Shown here: one piece after another, positions 42,857-64,000 of the stretch
Position numbering within the stretch: the stretch's first letter is position 1
Layout: each line of letters starts with the position of its first letter
Origin: Panorpa germanica
Lineage: Eukaryota; Arthropoda; Insecta; Mecoptera; Panorpidae
DNA length: 64,000 bases
Direction: 5' to 3'
Assembly (NCBI GenBank): GCA_963678705.1
Contig: OY783205.1
Span: 28,697,034 to 28,761,033, forward strand
Translations under genes and position numbers: made by a program
Notes under the pieces: generated by a model
What the model was told of the DNA's origin: nothing
Database searches by the model: none
The model's input: only the letters and a program-made list of their open reading frames with translations

Positions 42857-45800
42857 ATGCGAAACTGCGGTTGCGACCCAATCAACGATCAGCGGAGCGC
42901 CCTGGGGTCTGCGCCCACGCGGACAGGTACGCTTTATAATTTGTTCGAAATAGAAACAACAGAACATTCTTATATATTTTCTTTTTTATTTCTATTTAGG
43001 GCACTAACCTCACAATTTGAATGTATTTTTCAAGTTTCATCATGTTTTAATACTGTTTTGCAATTCCGTCCTATTGCTTTAGGTCTCCCTAACTTGCTCT
43101 TTTCTTTTAGGTTAGGTCTCCCTAACTTGCTCAATAACTTCTTTTTTCTTCCAGAAATTTAATTTATATGACTTTTTATTAATTTCAAAACTTTGCAATC
43201 GATTTTTAAACTACTTGTTAATAAGCTATCGAGCTCAAATTTTTTACAAACACTCTTTGTGAATGACAATGCGATGTGATGCAATAATACTTCATTAATT
43301 TTAAATTTTAAATACATAATCTACGTTTTTATAATCTTTTATTTCTAAATGAGTTAGGGGCCAGGAACTCAATACGAATTTCAAACATATTTTTTTAATT
43401 TGAACAACGTATAAGTTGATTTCTTGATTTGAACGAAACACCACCAACGCATTTCCTAAGCCAATGGGCAATGAAATGAACAGGCTCAGCAAGCTAGTGC
43501 TAGTGCTAGTGTTGTTATTCGTTATGTGTTATACGTTATACTCGTACATTATGTAGTTGTTGTAGTTGTTGCAATCTGACGACTACGACCACGCGGTCCT
43601 CAGATATCCCGCAGAACACCATGCGAACAACAGACTCTGTGGATATGCAAAATACTTCCAAATGGTGTTTGAGATTCTTGTATTGGATCTACACAAAAAC
43701 TCATATGATTTTAATAAGATCTGAGGCTATGAATCAAGGTGCGACTTTTACACCTGTGATTTTGTATTTTTATATGTAGTATCTGTCAAATAAACGCGGT
43801 CGCGTCACGTCGTATTGTTATTAACTAAATAATTATTTAAATTTTATTAAGTGTCATATTAAGAGGTATTTGCAAATGTTATTTAAAAATTAGTGATTTC
43901 AAATTGTTGTTATAGTTAAAAAAATTAATATATTACATTTATTAAAGTGTTTGTGTCGAAAACGTGTGTAATTTGTTGTGATTTATCATATAAAATTACG
44001 TAAATATTCTTCCCTTTTTGGCAATTGTGATTAAATCAATATAATGAAAATTTGACATTTTTATTAAATTATTTTAACAATCATTGAAGAGTGATAATTA
44101 TAATTTTTCGGATGTTACTTAGAACATAATTGTAAATATTTAAAAATTCACTGAGTTTTCGTTTTAATTTTAGGTTTTAACCTAAAAGCTTTATCATGTT
44201 TTAGCTTGTGAAATCATGTTTCGTTTGTCAGTAATATAATTTATTTAATATCCTACATACTACATTATAATGTTCCAGGTGTATATTTATATGTATATTG
44301 TTCTATATTGTATGTGTATTGTCCTATATGATAATTACCTTACCTTAGTTTACTTTACCTTACCTTCCTTTCCTTACCTTATCTTACGTTGATGTTACGT
44401 TGACGTTGACGTGAGCTTGACGTTACGTTGATGTGACGTTCCGTTGACGTGACGGTGACGTTCTGTTGGCGTTGACGTGACGGCGGCGTGACGTTGACGT
44501 TCCGTTGACGTGACGGTGACGTGACAGTGACGTTCCGTTGACGTAACGTTGACGTGACGGTGACGTTCCGTTGACGTGACGTTACGTTGACGTGACGGTG
44601 ACGTTCCGTCGACGTGACGTTGACGTTCCGTTGACGTTCCGTCGACGTTCCGTCGACGTGACGGTGACGTTCCGTTGACGTGACGTTGACGTTCCGTTGA
44701 CGTGACGTTGACGTGACGGTGACGTTCCGTTGACGTTCCGTTGACGTTCCGTTGACGTGACGGTGACGTTCCGTTGACGTTACGTTGACGTGACGGTGAC
44801 GTTCCGTTGACGTGACGGTGACGTTCCGTTGACGTTACGGTGACGTTCCGTTGACGTTACGTTGACGTGACGGTGACGTGACGTTGACGTGACGGTGACG
44901 TTACGTTGACGTTCCGTTGACGTTACCTTACCTTACCTTACCTTGCCTTACCTTACCTTACCTTACCTTACCTTACCTTACCTTACCTTACCTTACCTTA
45001 CCTTACCTTACCTTACCTTACCTTACCTTACATTACCTTACCTTACATTACCTTACCTTACCTTACCTTACCTTACCTTACATTACCTTACCTTACCTTA
45101 CCTTACCTTACCTTACCTTACTTTATCTTACCTTACCTTACCTTACCTTACCTTACCTTACCTTAAGTTTCCTATAATAATTTACTTAATTTACCATACT
45201 TAACAAACTTCAAAATATAAATCATTTGGGCAATGAAATATATTTTGGGATATACTAAAAAGTTCTTCGATCCTTAGAGGACTGTAGGACTTAGATCCTT
45301 TGTGTAGATCAGTAAAATCAGTACACAAATTAAGGCTTAGCCTAGCTATCATACTCGTACTGTGATATTAAAAGTTGTCGTCTTGTATTTGAACAAATTA
45401 TGCAATCTAGAAGTCAAGATATTTGTTAAGAAATATCTTATAATAAATTGTTGATTAATAATTCTCGTAGCATGATGTTTTGACATGATTTGTAAACCGC
45501 GAACACGGATCTGTTCTGTCTGTGCGTTTGTCCGTCGGTCACTTCACTGTACTTACCTGTGTACACACCTGTGCACCGTCGCCCACGTGGATTTTGAAAT
45601 TCAATTTTTAATGATTTATGAATGTGTATATAAAATATGTATGTATTATAGCATATATATTTAAAACACCGATAAAAGAATTATAATTGAGAAAAAATAA
45701 ATATGTACTTCGAACTTTTACGAATTAAAAGTTATAGACCAAAAAGTAAAAATTACGGGTTTTCAGAAAATTCAGAGAAAAATTCGAGTACGCCAAAATT

Positions 45801-54655: not shown

Positions 54656-55966
54656 TTATCTAACGTGGTTAGTCTTAAAATACTGAGTGACAAGCCTCGC
54701 AATATTCAAAGGACGCGCGTCCTTTGTGTCCGTCAGGTAATTATTGAACCTATCATTAGCTGCGGCAATAGTTGTGTGTAAATAATTTTGGAAATCATTT
54801 AATGTTTTATTATTAAATTCATTCAAAAGTTTTGCGTAAGTAAAATTACATAAAATTAAACAATTGATTAAAGTTTGTTTCTTTTTTCTAGAAGTTATAA
54901 GTAAGGAATCCGGAATTCTTGCAAGATCCGCTCTCAACGGCTCCTTTTCGAGTTTCCAATTCACGTAGTAAGACATACATTCAGGACTAAACGTGGAGTT
55001 TGCTAGCTCGGGAATTGCAAATGAAAGTTGTCTAAAAAGAAAAAATAATATTACTCTTTCTTTTTTAAATATTTGTTGAATTATGAAATATTTTGAACTC
55101 ACCCATTAAAATGTTTTACAAGGAGATCGTGCAAATCTTTTGCATCGTCGTGACCTCGATGCTCCACGTTTTTTCGTCGTCCGATAATTTGGGCGTATAA
55201 TTCATGAAGACTAACTTTAGGGAAGCTTGGATTGTTCAAAAAAACTGCATTTGTATCGGTGAATCCTTTAACAACCTAAAAATAACGAACCTTAAGACAT
55301 TTAAATTTAAATTTAAAAAATTCTTTTGAAACCTACACGAAAGAAATCTTCTATAAGATTATGCTGCCTATACGCCGTAATTAATAATGGAATGTCTAGG
55401 AAGATAGCACCATGGCTCATAATGATAACGCCATCAGATTCCCCGCAGAAGAACTTCAACCACTTTAGAAACAGCGCAAGCCCATCGCGTTCGCTGACAG
55501 TGCTTAAATAATGTCCTGTCCTAGGGAAATTTCAAAAAGAGTTTTCAACATTTTTAAAAGGAATCATTAACTGAAAGTTAAACAACAAGAACCTGAGATC
55601 AATTAGTTGTCTGGTGTTGCCATCGCTGCACACTTGCATGCCAATCATCATCGAAGCTTGAGGATGAATTTCCCGTTCGTCCGGAAGGATATATTGAGAG
55701 AATTGCCAACTCTGACCGCGGTAATGACAATAAGCACCCAGCTGCACTATGCGATCCTCCACGAGGTCCAATCCTGTAGATTCCACGTCATAGCAAACGA
55801 GCTGGTAATTGCCAGGCCCCACTAATTGAACTGAAGGAGGTCGACTGCCCTGAAAGAGAACTGTTATTTGAGACTGAATTATAGAATTGTATATAATTTG
55901 GCTTAACATACTATGAATTCAACGAAATAATCACAGGAGTGCAGCGTGCTGGTTTGGAAATCGAAC
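54656..55966 (-). CDS. exu: Exuperantia-like protein with DEDDh exonuclease domain; 5' end incomplete
   Basis: Fly exuperantia binds RNA and localises bicoid/oskar mRNA; its exonuclease fold has lost the catalytic residues (family knowledge). Minus-strand exons are 55966-55912, 55849-55593, 55520-55337, 55275-55103 and 55031-54656, giving at least 347 residues. GPGNYQLVCYDVESTG, followed by DRIVQLGAY and FSQYILP, aligns with the Exu N-terminal region. Unlike fly Exu it keeps all DEDDh residues: DVE, SHGAIFLD and HRGHDDAKD. The last exon encodes an all-helical region (SFAIPELANSTFSPECMSYY onward) of the kind seen after the Exu nuclease domain. The initiator is not located: exon 55966 begins mid-codon. 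ATG 55909 in the next intron is an alternative start. A TREX-like nuclease is the main alternative identity. Confidence 0.65.
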
Positions 55967-58198: not shown

Positions 58199-59714
58199 AT
58201 TACTGGATATTCAGTTGAAATGTGCAATCATATAAATGATGAAAATTTTCATTTTTTATGAACTTTTATGTCTCATTACGACACTCATTTCTCAATTGCC
58301 AATTAACAGAAATATTTTATCTAAAAACCACATCGTTTTCATTGTTGTGAGATATATTAAAAAGTAAGATTAATCGACGTTATCATCTAACGATTATTCA
58401 CATCATTACACAATCACATCAAAATTAAATAGATCTTCGATAAAAACAAAGAGGCGCAAATTTTTTTCAATTATTTAATTCCACTATGTACGTCTAAATG
58501 TGTCTACTACATAAATGTTACATTTGTGTTTACAGGAGGTATATTATAAAACCTTAAAATACTATCGAATTATTAGTATGATTTATTAGAACATAAAAGT
58601 ATAAAAAATAATAGGATCTATATCTCCAGAGAGCTTGAAATTAAAAATTACCTCGAAAAGAAGGTCCATAACTTTAAATAACCCACAAAAACCAAGTCAC
58701 TGTGAATAATTATAATGAATTTAATGACTGTTCTACTTCTAATGACAGTTTTGTTCGTATCAAAATATACATATCTGATGAATCTTATCAACAAAACAAA
58801 AAATTGCAAGTTCCTATGAAGTATACTCGAAATTCGATATCATTAAAGATAGTTACCTAGAAACATCGCCATTGAGGTTATCAGGAAGCGAAAAGCGAAA
58901 ATAAGGAAAATGGCTAATTAGAAACAGAAAAATAATAATAATCTAGGCTCTAAAAAGACAATTTTCGTAAAATATATGAGAAATAATCATTTTTATGACA
59001 GAATTCTATAATTTTACATCTTGTTCCACTTTCCAGTAAAAAGTTTACTTTTCCAATTCTGAAATAAATTCAATAATCTGTAAATAAATACAGATCTCGC
59101 CTATGTGCATGCAACCACTACTACACTACAGTGGTTAGCGGTCATAATAAGATTACGAAGTTTGAACTTATATTCCACATAATGTTTCATAGTTAATTTA
59201 AAGTCTTACAACTTCATACATTTAATAGAATTTTCTAATCATACATCACTCAATCAAACCATACTCCATATCAACTATATTTTTATCAATTCAACTAATT
59301 ATTACGAATGCGGCTCTTACTTCATGTACCGTGTGTGCTGCGAGTTACTGCAATCTACAAACGGCTACACGAATTTATGTGGCTTATCGAATTTATATCA
59401 TTTAGTAGCTGCTATAATTCCTAGAAATATGTATTTACTTTTCATTAGGTTTTTTATTTTTTGTTACAATACAGCTTAAGTTATATATCTATTAACATAT
59501 ACATGTTTTAATTGCTGTTATACTAAAATTACAAGAATAATATACAAGAAAAAGTTGCAAAATTAATTTTGGGAAAGTGTAAAATTATTGTAATTGTGTT
59601 TTGTATAGAATTTAACACGATTGTTTCTCGTTAATTTGTATTTTACAAATAAGAATTTAATTATAATTTAAAAATATGACTCAGACGGACAAATGTAGTA
59701 GTTTGTATAACGTG

Positions 59715-59728
59715 TCACTAGATGGCTC
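59715..59728 (+). promoter_or_regulatory. CTCF-like site upstream of the tricistron
   Basis: TCACTAGATGGCTC matches 12 of 14 positions of the CTCF core CCASYAGRKGGCRS. It lies about 145 bp before the first start codon. The match is by recall of the consensus; function is inferred. Confidence 0.3.
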
Positions 59729-59872
59729 TAGCTGATATATTTTTCATCTGCGCCTGGTATGGCTGCTTCCAGCCCGCTATTCCATCTAATTGATGGTAAT
59801 ACCTTTTATTTTACAAAATGGTGTAGACGGTGTCTGTTATTATAAAGTTTCATTGAATTTATAAACTACGTT

Positions 59873-60273
59873 ATGTTACAGAAAAATCCTAAACCAGCAT
59901 ATAGGAGATACTTCAAAACTGGTGCAATTATATTCTTTGTCGCTGAAGCTATTGGTTTTGCTGTATCTTATGGAGTTTGGCATCGTATGAATACAAATAG
60001 AGGTGGGTTAGGTTATATTTTATAATAGGTGTGTTCCAGAACATTCGATTCGTATTTTGACAGTTATGTAATAAAATAAAATACAAAATTATTCATTGTA
60101 TAATACAAGCTATGTCATCTATTACAGATTTTCGTCTTTATATGCATAATAACTTTCCTTGGGCTTTGGAAGGTTTTTATAAATTTGGAGAGTTTATGTC
60201 AAGCGAAAATAAGTCACGTCAACTTGATTCAACTGTGTGGTCTCAAGAACAAAAATTACCAAGAAATAATTAA
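59873..60273 (+). CDS. CEBPZOS: CEBPZOS-like mitochondrial micropeptide; first frame of a tricistron
   Basis: Exons are 59873-60002 and 60128-60273, giving 91 residues. Layout matches the CEBPZOS family of small mitochondrial single-pass proteins: basic start (KPAYRRYFKTG), a transmembrane helix (AIIFFVAEAIGFAVSYGVW), then RMNTNRDFRLYMHNNFPWAL and a short polar tail (human about 80 aa). The DFR motif is rebuilt across the intron. Molecular function in the family is poorly known. Its stop codon is only 16 nt before the next start codon, with no splice acceptor and no room for a promoter, so it almost certainly shares an mRNA with the following frame. Confidence 0.8.
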
Positions 60274-60289
60274 ATAATCGAAGTAGTCC

Positions 60290-60538
60290 ATGGCATATAT
60301 TAAGTCTCTCTTTTGGCTAGTAGGATTTAGCGGTTTGGGATTTGCATTATTAAAAATTACAACGCCTGACGTTTCACATAATCAATTTTCCTCATCACAA
60401 TTAGACGAAACACACAAAAGACGTGCAGCATTTTTAAAAATTCTAAAAGAAGCAGCAGATGAGAAGAGTCCTATATATAGAAAAACTAAAGAAGAAATAG
60501 AAAGTAAGGTCAAGGATAAAAATTCATTCAATAAGTAG
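60290..60538 (+). CDS. UQCC3: UQCC3-like complex III assembly factor; second frame of a tricistron
   Basis: 82 residues in one exon. UQCC3 helps assemble ubiquinol-cytochrome c reductase in the mitochondrial inner membrane (family knowledge). It has the family pattern: an N-terminal transmembrane helix (SLFWLVGFSGLGFALLKI) ending in TP, then a basic, helical segment (ETHKRRAAFLKILKEAAD). The assignment rests on this layout and weak similarity. The start CCATGG is in a reasonable context. It sits 16 nt after the CEBPZOS-like stop and 20 nt before the TBCC start. Confidence 0.7.
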   Translation: MAYIKSLFWLVGFSGLGFALLKITTPDVSHNQFSSSQLDETHKRRAAFLKILKEAADEKSPIYRKTKEEIESKVKDKNSFNK

Positions 60539-60558
60539 TCATTTAAATAAGCTCGAGA

Positions 60559-61560
60559 ATGGATGTGATAGAGAAAAACCGTGAGGTGATGACTTACCGA
60601 TTGGAAAAGCGTGAGGAACTAAGACAAAAACAAATTGAAAATGTTAATAAACAAAAGGAACAAAACGTTGCAAAAACCGAAGGTATTGAGTATTTTCAAT
60701 ATGTCTTTAACGATAGGAGGCAACAGATAACAAATCTTTTGGAGGAGAGTTCCAATTTAAAACCTATTGAAATTCCTGCCCATTTTAATATTATCAATGA
60801 AAAAATTCAAGAATTACAAAAATATGTTTCAGCATCTACATTTTTCTTAACCGAATTTAAAATTAGGAATTCCCAAGATATTGTAAATACTTTGAAGAAT
60901 CAGCTACACGAATTGGAAATAAAGTTACTACCAAAAAAAAAGTTTGGTTTCAAAAATAAAAAGAATATAACACAAGAAATTGTGACCAAAACTGTCGACA
61001 TAGTCGATTATAAGGATAAATCGGACGACGATGATTTAATAAAATGGGATGCAGTAACATGTGGAATAAACTCAAAACAAAATGAAACTTTAACGCTATC
61101 TTCTGAAAGAATAAATAAAGAAGATGTAACGTTACATAGTTTAGAAAATTGCGTTATCTTTATTCACGGCACTCCGTCTACTCTGCATATGTCTAGATTA
61201 AATAAATGCACTGTTCTTTGTGGTCCAGTCAGTACTTCAATATTCGCTGATAAGTGCTCAGATTGTACATTTGTCATTGCTTGCCAACAGCTTCGTCTAC
61301 ACTCTTCTAAAAATGTAGATATATACTTACATGTTACTAGCAGAGCAATTTTGGAAGACTGTTCAAAAATAGAGCTAACTTCTTATAATTACAAATATGA
61401 AGACATAGATAACGATTTTAAAATAGCTGGATTGGATAAACATATTAACAACTGGATGGATGTAGGTGATTTTAACTGGTTGTCTAACGAGCCATCACCA
61501 AATTGGAAAATAATAGATGATAAGAAAGTCATCAATGATTGGAGTGCATATATAAAATAA
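60559..61560 (+). CDS. TBCC: Tubulin-folding cofactor C; third frame of a tricistron
   Basis: The GTPase-activating cofactor of the alpha/beta-tubulin folding complex (family knowledge). A single uninterrupted frame of 333 residues (human 346, also intronless). Residues 1-120 form the helical spectrin-like tubulin-binding domain (YFQYVFNDRRQQI, HFNIINEKIQELQKYV). The C-terminal beta-helix C-CAP/TBCC domain starts near 165 (LENCVIFIHGTPSTLHMSRL, CTVLCGPVSTSIF). It retains the catalytic Arg-finger block IACQQLRLH. No promoter or acceptor fits in the 20 nt before its ATG, so translation is expected from the same mRNA by reinitiation or leaky scanning. An AATAAA follows at about 61614. Confidence 0.95.
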   Translation: MDVIEKNREVMTYRLEKREELRQKQIENVNKQKEQNVAKTEGIEYFQYVFNDRRQQITNLLEESSNLKPIEIPAHFNIINEKIQELQKYVSASTFFLTEFKIRNSQDIVNTLKNQLHELEIKLLPKKKFGFKNKKNITQEIVTKTVDIVDYKDKSDDDDLIKWDAVTCGINSKQNETLTLSSERINKEDVTLHSLENCVIFIHGTPSTLHMSRLNKCTVLCGPVSTSIFADKCSDCTFVIACQQLRLHSSKNVDIYLHVTSRAILEDCSKIELTSYNYKYEDIDNDFKIAGLDKHINNWMDVGDFNWLSNEPSPNWKIIDDKKVINDWSAYIK

Positions 61561-61670
61561 TATTAAGTTAAATGCTATAACAAACTTGCTATATTTTTAT
61601 GATATTTTTTTTCAATAAAAATTTAATTTGTAGTTGCACATTATTTCTCGCATATATAAGCTTTTAAAAT

Positions 61671-61769
61671 ATGAAACGTTGCCTTTTTATTGTTGCATTA
61701 GTTATTCTATGTTCATTGAGACAGTGTTTTTCTATTACAGAGCACAATGTGAGAGCAGAACTTTTTTAA
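61671..61769 (+). CDS. Possible secreted 32-residue peptide ORF
   Basis: ATG AAA CGT ... encodes MKRCLFIVALVILCSLRQ-CFS, a textbook signal peptide, then only 11 residues (ITEHNVRAELF) and a stop. A TATATAAG box lies at about 61653-61660, but too close to the ATG to serve it in the usual way. The 32 codons may be chance or the first exon of a larger gene (donor-like AAT|GTGAGA at 61749). No family was recognised. Confidence 0.2.
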   Translation: MKRCLFIVALVILCSLRQCFSITEHNVRAELF

Positions 61770-62676: not shown

Positions 62677-64000
62677 TCATCTGAGTCCTTGTCGTGCTGA
62701 ATTTGTGGGTTGAGTCATTAAATGTTTCAAAACATAAGGCATCTCTGATAATCTTGATCTTACTAAACTAGGTAATTCATCCACATTTTTAACTGAATAA
62801 TTATTGAAAGTACCATCAGGCAAGCTGTAATTAATTCCATCACCCGACAGGACGGTTAAACGTGCTCCATCCGAATAGGTAACTTGAACTTCCCCCGAAG
62901 AAGACTAAATTTAAATGAAGAAATAAATTATTTTTTAGTAACACTTACATTAAGTATATATGTATAATCACAAAATGTTATACCTGGGTTGCAGTTCCAA
63001 TTCCAGGGACATTTACGCGTCTTGCAAATTCAAAATTCTGATGATTAGGCTTATGCGGTTTTAAAATTTGAGGGTTTGAAGACAATCCAGTCATTGAAGA
63101 AATACCAAATGAAAGCATCTTTAAAAATAAGTTATTGAATATTAATATTTATTTAAAAAAAGTAAAACAAAAACTTGTATACGTAAACATACTCGTGGTG
63201 TTGAATTTTGCGAAATATTTTCTTTTCCTCGACCGCTATAGGTATCATTTTTTGGAAAAGGTCTTCGTCCTACCGTGACAGGAAAGAAAGTTGCATCATG
63301 TGCCAACTGTGAGATGGTCTTTTCCACGATTCGGCATTTTTCCAAACACTACAAATATGGAAAAGTTTTGTCATATTTTATTCATTTAGAATGTTTAAAA
63401 CTCTATCTATTTACCTGTTGATAGTGTTCCCACATAGTCCTTGTTTCGCTAGTGTGTAAATCCGAATTTTGTGGATTAGGAGGCGAAACTGATCGACCTT
63501 CTCGATCAATTAAACGAACTCCTGAAGCTTCAGAATGCGTTACTTTTCCTCCTAAAGCAGATAAAATTGTATCACAACAAATGATTCAATTTGAATAGTT
63601 ACGAGGAAGTATTCACGAACTCACCGTCATAGAAACCTACTTCAAAATCTTCCATGGTTTCCATCAGTTGACATTTAGCTAGTTCGGTGTACAACGTAAT
63701 TTTCGGTGTTTTGGCACGAGATAAATATACGAACCTGGCAGCATAGATGTATTTTTTGGAGTGCTTAGCTGGTAAGCTCTCATAACTGTATATTTCATCG
63801 GCTCCTTTGAATGGTGTAGATGGGGGACTATTTTCCACAGGCACCCCGCTAAAATATTGATCATGTATTTATTTTCAGGATCATGTTTTACAAATTTTCA
63901 TTTATTCAAACATACCGTCCTTGCTCAGGCTGATATATTATAATTCTAAGTCCATCTTCAGTTATTCTGCAAACATCAACAACGCGTTCTTCTTTAGAGT
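62677..64000 (-). CDS. PLK4: Polo-like kinase 4 (SAK), C-terminal part, cut by window edge
   Basis: The master kinase of centriole duplication (family knowledge). Only the C-terminal half is in the window. Minus-strand exons are 64000-63916 (partial), 63848-63625, 63551-63415, 63348-63193, 63118-62984 and 62904-62677, all joining in phase. The cryptic polo-box region is clear: [59 protein letters not shown] and DFEVGFYDG. The third polo box is [19 protein letters not shown], followed by [20 protein letters not shown] to the C-terminus. The linker has a KEN box ([10 protein letters not shown]). The kinase domain lies beyond 64000. Convergent with TBCC. Confidence 0.93.

Follow-up and report, generated by a model that had tools for sequence, protein, structure and literature searches.

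A shared mRNA carrying a CEBPZOS-like cistron, UQCC3 and the tubulin chaperone TBCC is the likeliest and simplest reading of a compact locus in Panorpa germanica, and we assign this reading a probability of roughly 0.55. The locus lies in the window, by which we mean the whole 64,000-nucleotide stretch of DNA analyzed here. Frame analysis places the three cistrons head to tail on the plus strand with gaps of 16 nt and 20 nt between them. Recomputing the frames confirmed the coordinates of the three complete same-strand frames, and of both gaps, reported in a preliminary description of this DNA. The features of the locus are as follows.

59873-60002, plus strand: coding exon 1 of the CEBPZOS-like cistron, predicted from frame, splice joint and similarity to human CEBPZOS
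60003-60127, plus strand: predicted GT-AG intron of the CEBPZOS-like cistron, 125 nt, from frame, the joint lying inside the stretch aligned to human CEBPZOS
60128-60273, plus strand: coding exon 2 and stop codon of the CEBPZOS-like cistron, predicted from frame, splice joint and similarity to human CEBPZOS
60274-60289, plus strand: intercistronic gap 1, 16 nt, without a pyrimidine tract plus AG
60290-60538, plus strand: UQCC3-like cistron, 82 aa, intronless; PF15141 at 38.6 bits, sole match in its own assembly
60304-60323, plus strand: acceptor-like NAGNAG within the UQCC3 frame (AG ends at 60320 and 60323; 11/14 and 10/14 pyrimidines)
60524-60544, plus strand: two initiator-like TCAKTY matches (+1 at 60526 and 60541), marking a candidate independent start for TBCC
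60539-60558, plus strand: intercistronic gap 2, 20 nt, without a pyrimidine tract plus AG
60559-61560, plus strand: TBCC cistron, 333 aa, intronless; PF16752, PF07986 and PDB 9m1m, sole match in its own assembly
61614-61619, plus strand: AATAAA, the first 3' of the TBCC stop

The sequences of the two gaps are ATAATCGAAGTAGTCC (gap 1) and TCATTTAAATAAGCTCGAGA (gap 2).

The gene names given in the preliminary description hold, by Pfam for UQCC3 and TBCC and, for the CEBPZOS-like protein, tentatively by similarity to a human sequence entered by hand. The UQCC3-like protein scored 38.6 bits against PF15141, where the cut-off is 33.6. Judged by its domains, the third cistron is full-length TBCC: both an N-terminal TBCC_N domain (PF16752, 98 bits) and a C-terminal domain (PF07986, 135.6 bits) are present above their cut-offs, and residues 8-324 match PDB chain 9m1m_C with an E value of 8.3e-66. 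The first protein, of 91 aa and encoded by two exons, had no match in Pfam, NCBIfam or PDB. We call it CEBPZOS-like for its similarity to human CEBPZOS (33% over 64 aa, E 5e-11) in a single BLASTP comparison for which the human query was entered by hand. Its predicted intron likewise derives from frame and similarity. Eight donor/acceptor pairs keep the frame, and 60003/60127 is the one that fits the human CEBPZOS alignment; because this alignment crosses the splice joint, it supports intron and name alike. In the passages cited here, two mitochondrial inventories (PMC5404111 and PMC7066081) list CEBPZOS as an intermembrane-space protein, and one of the two concerns mitochondrial orphans of unknown function. 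Cited passages of a study of cytochrome b assembly (PMC8719881) have UQCC1, UQCC2, SMIM4 and C12ORF73 acting together at an early stage and UQCC3 at the next step.

Packing as close as that of UQCC3 and TBCC occurs once on the plus strand of the window: theirs is the one pair of ATG-initiated frames of at least 80 aa each with a gap of 0-30 nt. Sixty 64-kb sequences generated by a first-order Markov model contained no such pair (at least 80 aa, gap 0-30 nt), under an 80-aa threshold that was set post hoc with the 82 aa of UQCC3 already known. The two-exon CEBPZOS-like frame is too split to be counted in this comparison. Both gaps fall within the range of -34 to 319 nt that the cited part of Crosby et al. 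(2015, PMC4528330) gives for exclusively polycistronic fly loci, which favors a polycistronic locus here as well. Across its own 464-Mb assembly, the window locus was the sole match for TBCC (E <= 0.001) and for UQCC3 and the CEBPZOS-like protein (E <= 1), the search with the last returning two exon matches, both at this locus. Given no second match for any of the trio, each must be expressed from here, so far as the assembly is complete. Scans for TBCC in prokaryote and viral contig collections and for UQCC3 in viral contigs gave no match.

Elsewhere in the window, a minus-strand frame at 55535-55918 resembles the Exuperantia RNase H-like domain (27.2 bits against a cut-off of 27), in keeping with an insect source, and a minus-strand exon at 63682-63864 had no meaningful Pfam or PDB match. 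At 44379-45203, stretches are open in more than one frame and translate into repeats of the TSTERHRHVN and LTLPY types. Arrays of the telomere repeat TTAGG, a taxon marker, were absent from the 6 contig ends examined.

The arrangement that we infer, a polycistronic locus of housekeeping genes such as insects have, combines a shared mRNA with leaky scanning and an additional route to TBCC. One promoter upstream of 59873 would give rise to a capped RNA, from which one intron, within the first cistron, would be spliced out and which would be polyadenylated 3' of TBCC. The first AUG would direct synthesis of the CEBPZOS-like peptide. UQCC3, with a weak AUG context of its own, would be started by scanning ribosomes that had passed the CEBPZOS AUG and a few weakly placed internal AUGs. 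A minority of ribosomes would continue to TBCC, where the AUG context is the best of the three, and TBCC would probably be aided by a second route, by way of an internal start or of alternative splicing.

Start contexts and intervening AUGs bear on this scheme in both directions. CEBPZOS starts with G at -3 and T at +4, UQCC3 with T at -3 and G at +4, and TBCC with A at -3 and G at +4. Four AUGs follow the start within the CEBPZOS cistron, three of them in frame and one opening a 6-codon frame, and one AUG within UQCC3 opens a 13-codon frame. At all six AUGs between the CEBPZOS and TBCC starts, counting that of UQCC3, position -3 is a pyrimidine; from the 48% seen over all window ATGs, the chance of this pattern, spotted post hoc, is about 0.012. 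AUG depletion relative to synonymous shuffles was not significant for CEBPZOS or UQCC3 (P(<=observed) 0.34 and 0.49, respectively). The purine at -3 means that the CEBPZOS AUG is not clearly weak, which argues against leaky scanning, and the intervening AUGs in CEBPZOS and UQCC3 would make access to TBCC through scanning alone inefficient. Overall, leaky scanning is a plausible route to UQCC3 and a weak one to TBCC. Five more AUGs lie at 59693-59818, and their membership of the leader depends on the transcription start site. A structured IRES was rejected as an explanation. RNA folding at both junctions was no better than that of shuffled sequences (z 1.69 and 0.89), with 194 of 200 shuffles folding at least as well at junction 1 and 157 of 200 at junction 2, which gives no hint of a structured site for internal entry.

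TBCC may instead have a start of its own. A tentative alternative, to which we give appreciable but clearly lesser weight, holds that CEBPZOS and UQCC3 are dicistronic while TBCC is expressed mainly from its own short-leader mRNA, starting in the UQCC3 tail or gap 2. The preliminary description allowed no room for a promoter between the frames, a view that proved too strong: a TBCC promoter could sit in the upstream frame, and initiator-like sites do occur shortly before the TBCC start. The plus strand of 59600-61700 contains only two TCAKTY matches, with +1 at 60526 and 60541; these positions precede the TBCC ATG by 33 and 18 nt. At the window density of 0.00184 per nt, 0.066 would be expected in 36 nt, and finding two has a Poisson probability of about 0.002, for a motif that is short, degenerate and spotted post hoc. 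A start near TBCC is also favored by TATATATA at 60472-60479, 87 nt upstream of the TBCC ATG, in a region where TATA-like words are common (9 TATAWA matches in 2.1 kb), and by fly data, in which a 3' frame with monocistronic transcripts usually owes them to a downstream or external promoter, according to the cited part of Crosby et al. (PMC4528330). Against it, neither initiator-like site has a TATA or DPE at a fitting distance. A bacterial promoter scan returned chance numbers only and is irrelevant to an insect. Splicing is a further possibility. The acceptor scan confirmed that neither gap contains a pyrimidine tract plus AG, yet the further claim that splicing cannot separate the cistrons went too far, since it considered the gaps only. 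Within the UQCC3 frame, acceptor-like AGs end at 60320, 60323 and 60404, each with 10-11 of 14 pyrimidines. Such sites are frequent by chance in the window (about 0.9 per kb with at least 11/14 pyrimidines and about 2.5 per kb with at least 10/14); the NAGNAG ending at 60320 and 60323 is a possible alternative splice site. Together with the initiator-like sites before TBCC, the acceptor-like sites make a separate TBCC transcript possible. As candidate splices, the CEBPZOS donor at 60003 and the acceptors at 60320 and 60323 would give in-frame fusions of 115 and 114 aa.

Complete independence of the genes appears unlikely. In this arrangement, three packed genes would be transcribed separately, with overlapping promoters and 3' ends, and read-through mRNAs would be minor. 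Potential poly(A) signals fit such a picture: ATTAAA at 60269 overlaps the CEBPZOS stop region, and another ATTAAA lies at 60349 inside UQCC3. With two AATAAA (60070 and 60075) in the CEBPZOS-like intron, they make early poly(A) sites possible, to the detriment of the one-mRNA reading. Precedent also exists in the fly, where both genes have monocistronic transcripts in 45 of 159 dicistronic loci, as given in the cited part of Crosby et al. (PMC4528330). However, gap 1 is without a TCAKTY match, and UTRs would need to fall almost entirely within neighboring coding frames. Animals that use a spliced leader have operons with tight gaps, which the spacing here resembles. An operon resolved by spliced-leader trans-splicing is nevertheless highly improbable, for both gaps lack the acceptor expected immediately 5' of a downstream start, a pyrimidine tract plus AG, and in the T-rich gap of a UQCC2/methyltransferase pair in the same assembly (below) the AGs precede rather than follow the T-rich tract. 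The shared mRNA, with TBCC probably helped by a second route, remains our preferred reading.

Tight same-strand spacing recurs elsewhere in the assembly. Frames for SMIM4 (UPF0640) and DUF4516, which we take to be C12orf73, lie 7 nt apart (L017:1492-2030) and constitute the counterpart of fly sloth1/sloth2. This gap was measured from the second exon predicted for the first gene, the tail of which matches UPF0640 weakly (15.5 bits, below the cut-off). A UQCC2-like gene of two exons (34.4 bits) is followed on the same strand, after 44 nt, by an intronless MraW-type methyltransferase of 359 aa. TBCA, picked as a control, is followed by PDCD7, at 27 nt if its first in-frame ATG is taken as the start and at 75 nt if the second is. 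The positions of the latter two pairs are:

L020 (G000:C4), around 12879282-12879652, minus strand: UQCC2/methyltransferase, dicistronic candidate
L031 (G000:C9), around 14809963-14810256, minus strand: TBCA/PDCD7

No tight same-strand neighbor was found for SURF1 (340 and 544 nt, from inferred ends), for UQCC1 on the upstream side, the one side seen (335 nt from the inferred first exon), or for COX20 on the downstream side, likewise the one seen (678 nt). Tight neighbors were thus present at 4 of 7 loci of this assembly (the window, SMIM4/DUF4516, UQCC2/methyltransferase and TBCA/PDCD7), in a sample that was hand-picked and includes two one-sided negatives, so no rate can be claimed. Tight linkage as a peculiarity of complex III factors became less likely with the control, since TBCA and PDCD7, too, lie close together.

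Three further arrangements, examined because they are known units, do not enter that count. MOCS2A (ThiS) and MOCS2B (MoaE) are 106 nt apart. Two loci with Tim10/DDP domains resemble Tim10 and Tim9b. At the Tim10-like gene, 53 nt separate the start from the upstream terminal exon of a small basic peptide (L008:1270-1471), and the Tim9b-like gene is followed 242 nt on by the frame of a KTI12-type kinase, which is also what we take fly CG12788 to be. The latter arrangement resembles the fly Tim9b-CG12788 pair in the cited part of Hayden and Bosco (PMC2276209). Separately, a Peroxin-3 frame lies 168 nt downstream of a Tim10/DDP-type exon frame and shares its strand (L007:1483-2940). We also considered that fly CG42497, the neighbor of Tim10, might be UQCC3. 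This idea was dropped because the small frame before the Tim10-like gene is unlike UQCC3 by eye and the window contains the sole UQCC3 match. Published passages describe a joint relocation of CG42497 and Tim10 in the course of Drosophila evolution and do not equate CG42497 with UQCC3.

The preliminary description did not know this trio as described, and among the open-access papers listed, judged by title or by the opening of the abstract, we too found no account of CEBPZOS-UQCC3-TBCC linkage. If the mRNA is tricistronic, an unrelated trio joins the known insect units and provides a clear test of third-cistron access. Linkage with UQCC3 is also a cheap lead on CEBPZOS function, and the locus is a warning for annotation, as insect gene sets may contain fused UQCC3 and TBCC models or omit them. 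A bolder and rather improbable proposal is that CEBPZOS is a partner of UQCC3 in cytochrome b/complex III assembly, that this lineage expresses most small complex III assembly factors (UQCC2, UQCC3, SMIM4 and DUF4516/C12orf73) from shared mRNAs, and that leaky scanning at the present locus couples CEBPZOS and UQCC3 to TBCC in one tricistronic message.

The polycistronic arrangement is already well known in insects, and the particular trio is probably new to it, as far as we found. The statement in the preliminary description that such mRNAs are rare in insects was too strong: D. melanogaster has 159 dicistronic pairs, 7 tricistronic sets and 2 tetracistronic sets, together 2.5% of its protein-coding gene models, by the cited passages of Crosby et al. 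(2015, PMC4528330). The trio shares with these fly loci complete same-strand frames, comparable gaps and small polypeptides, which are over-represented there. The fly loci have transcript evidence, whereas the unit here is predicted from sequence. UQCC, CEBPZ, TBCC and tubulin are absent from the main text of that paper. Among conserved peptide uORF units of Diptera, mitochondrial import proteins are enriched in the cited part of Hayden and Bosco (2008, PMC2276209), and in those units, as here, small conserved peptides lie upstream of another frame. The MOCS2, Tim10-like and Tim9b-like arrangements of that study also occur in the Panorpa assembly; its main text contains no mention of UQCC, CEBPZ or tubulin. 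Green algal bicistronic genes, in the cited passages of PMC11291117, combine a weak first AUG context and few AUGs before the second frame with leaky scanning, and differ from the present locus in lineage and in having two cistrons. Drosophila sloth1/sloth2 are expressed from one transcript with a 5 nt gap, and their leaky scanning is backed by reporters in the cited part of Bosch et al. (2022, PMC9681215). The likeness to our locus lies in small mitochondrial peptides, of complex III assembly in the fly, separated by a gap of a few nt. In the Panorpa counterpart of sloth1/sloth2, a predicted intron interrupts the first cistron, and the second is intronless. Sloth1 and sloth2 are considered distantly related paralogs, whereas the window trio joins unrelated families, the last of them a tubulin chaperone.
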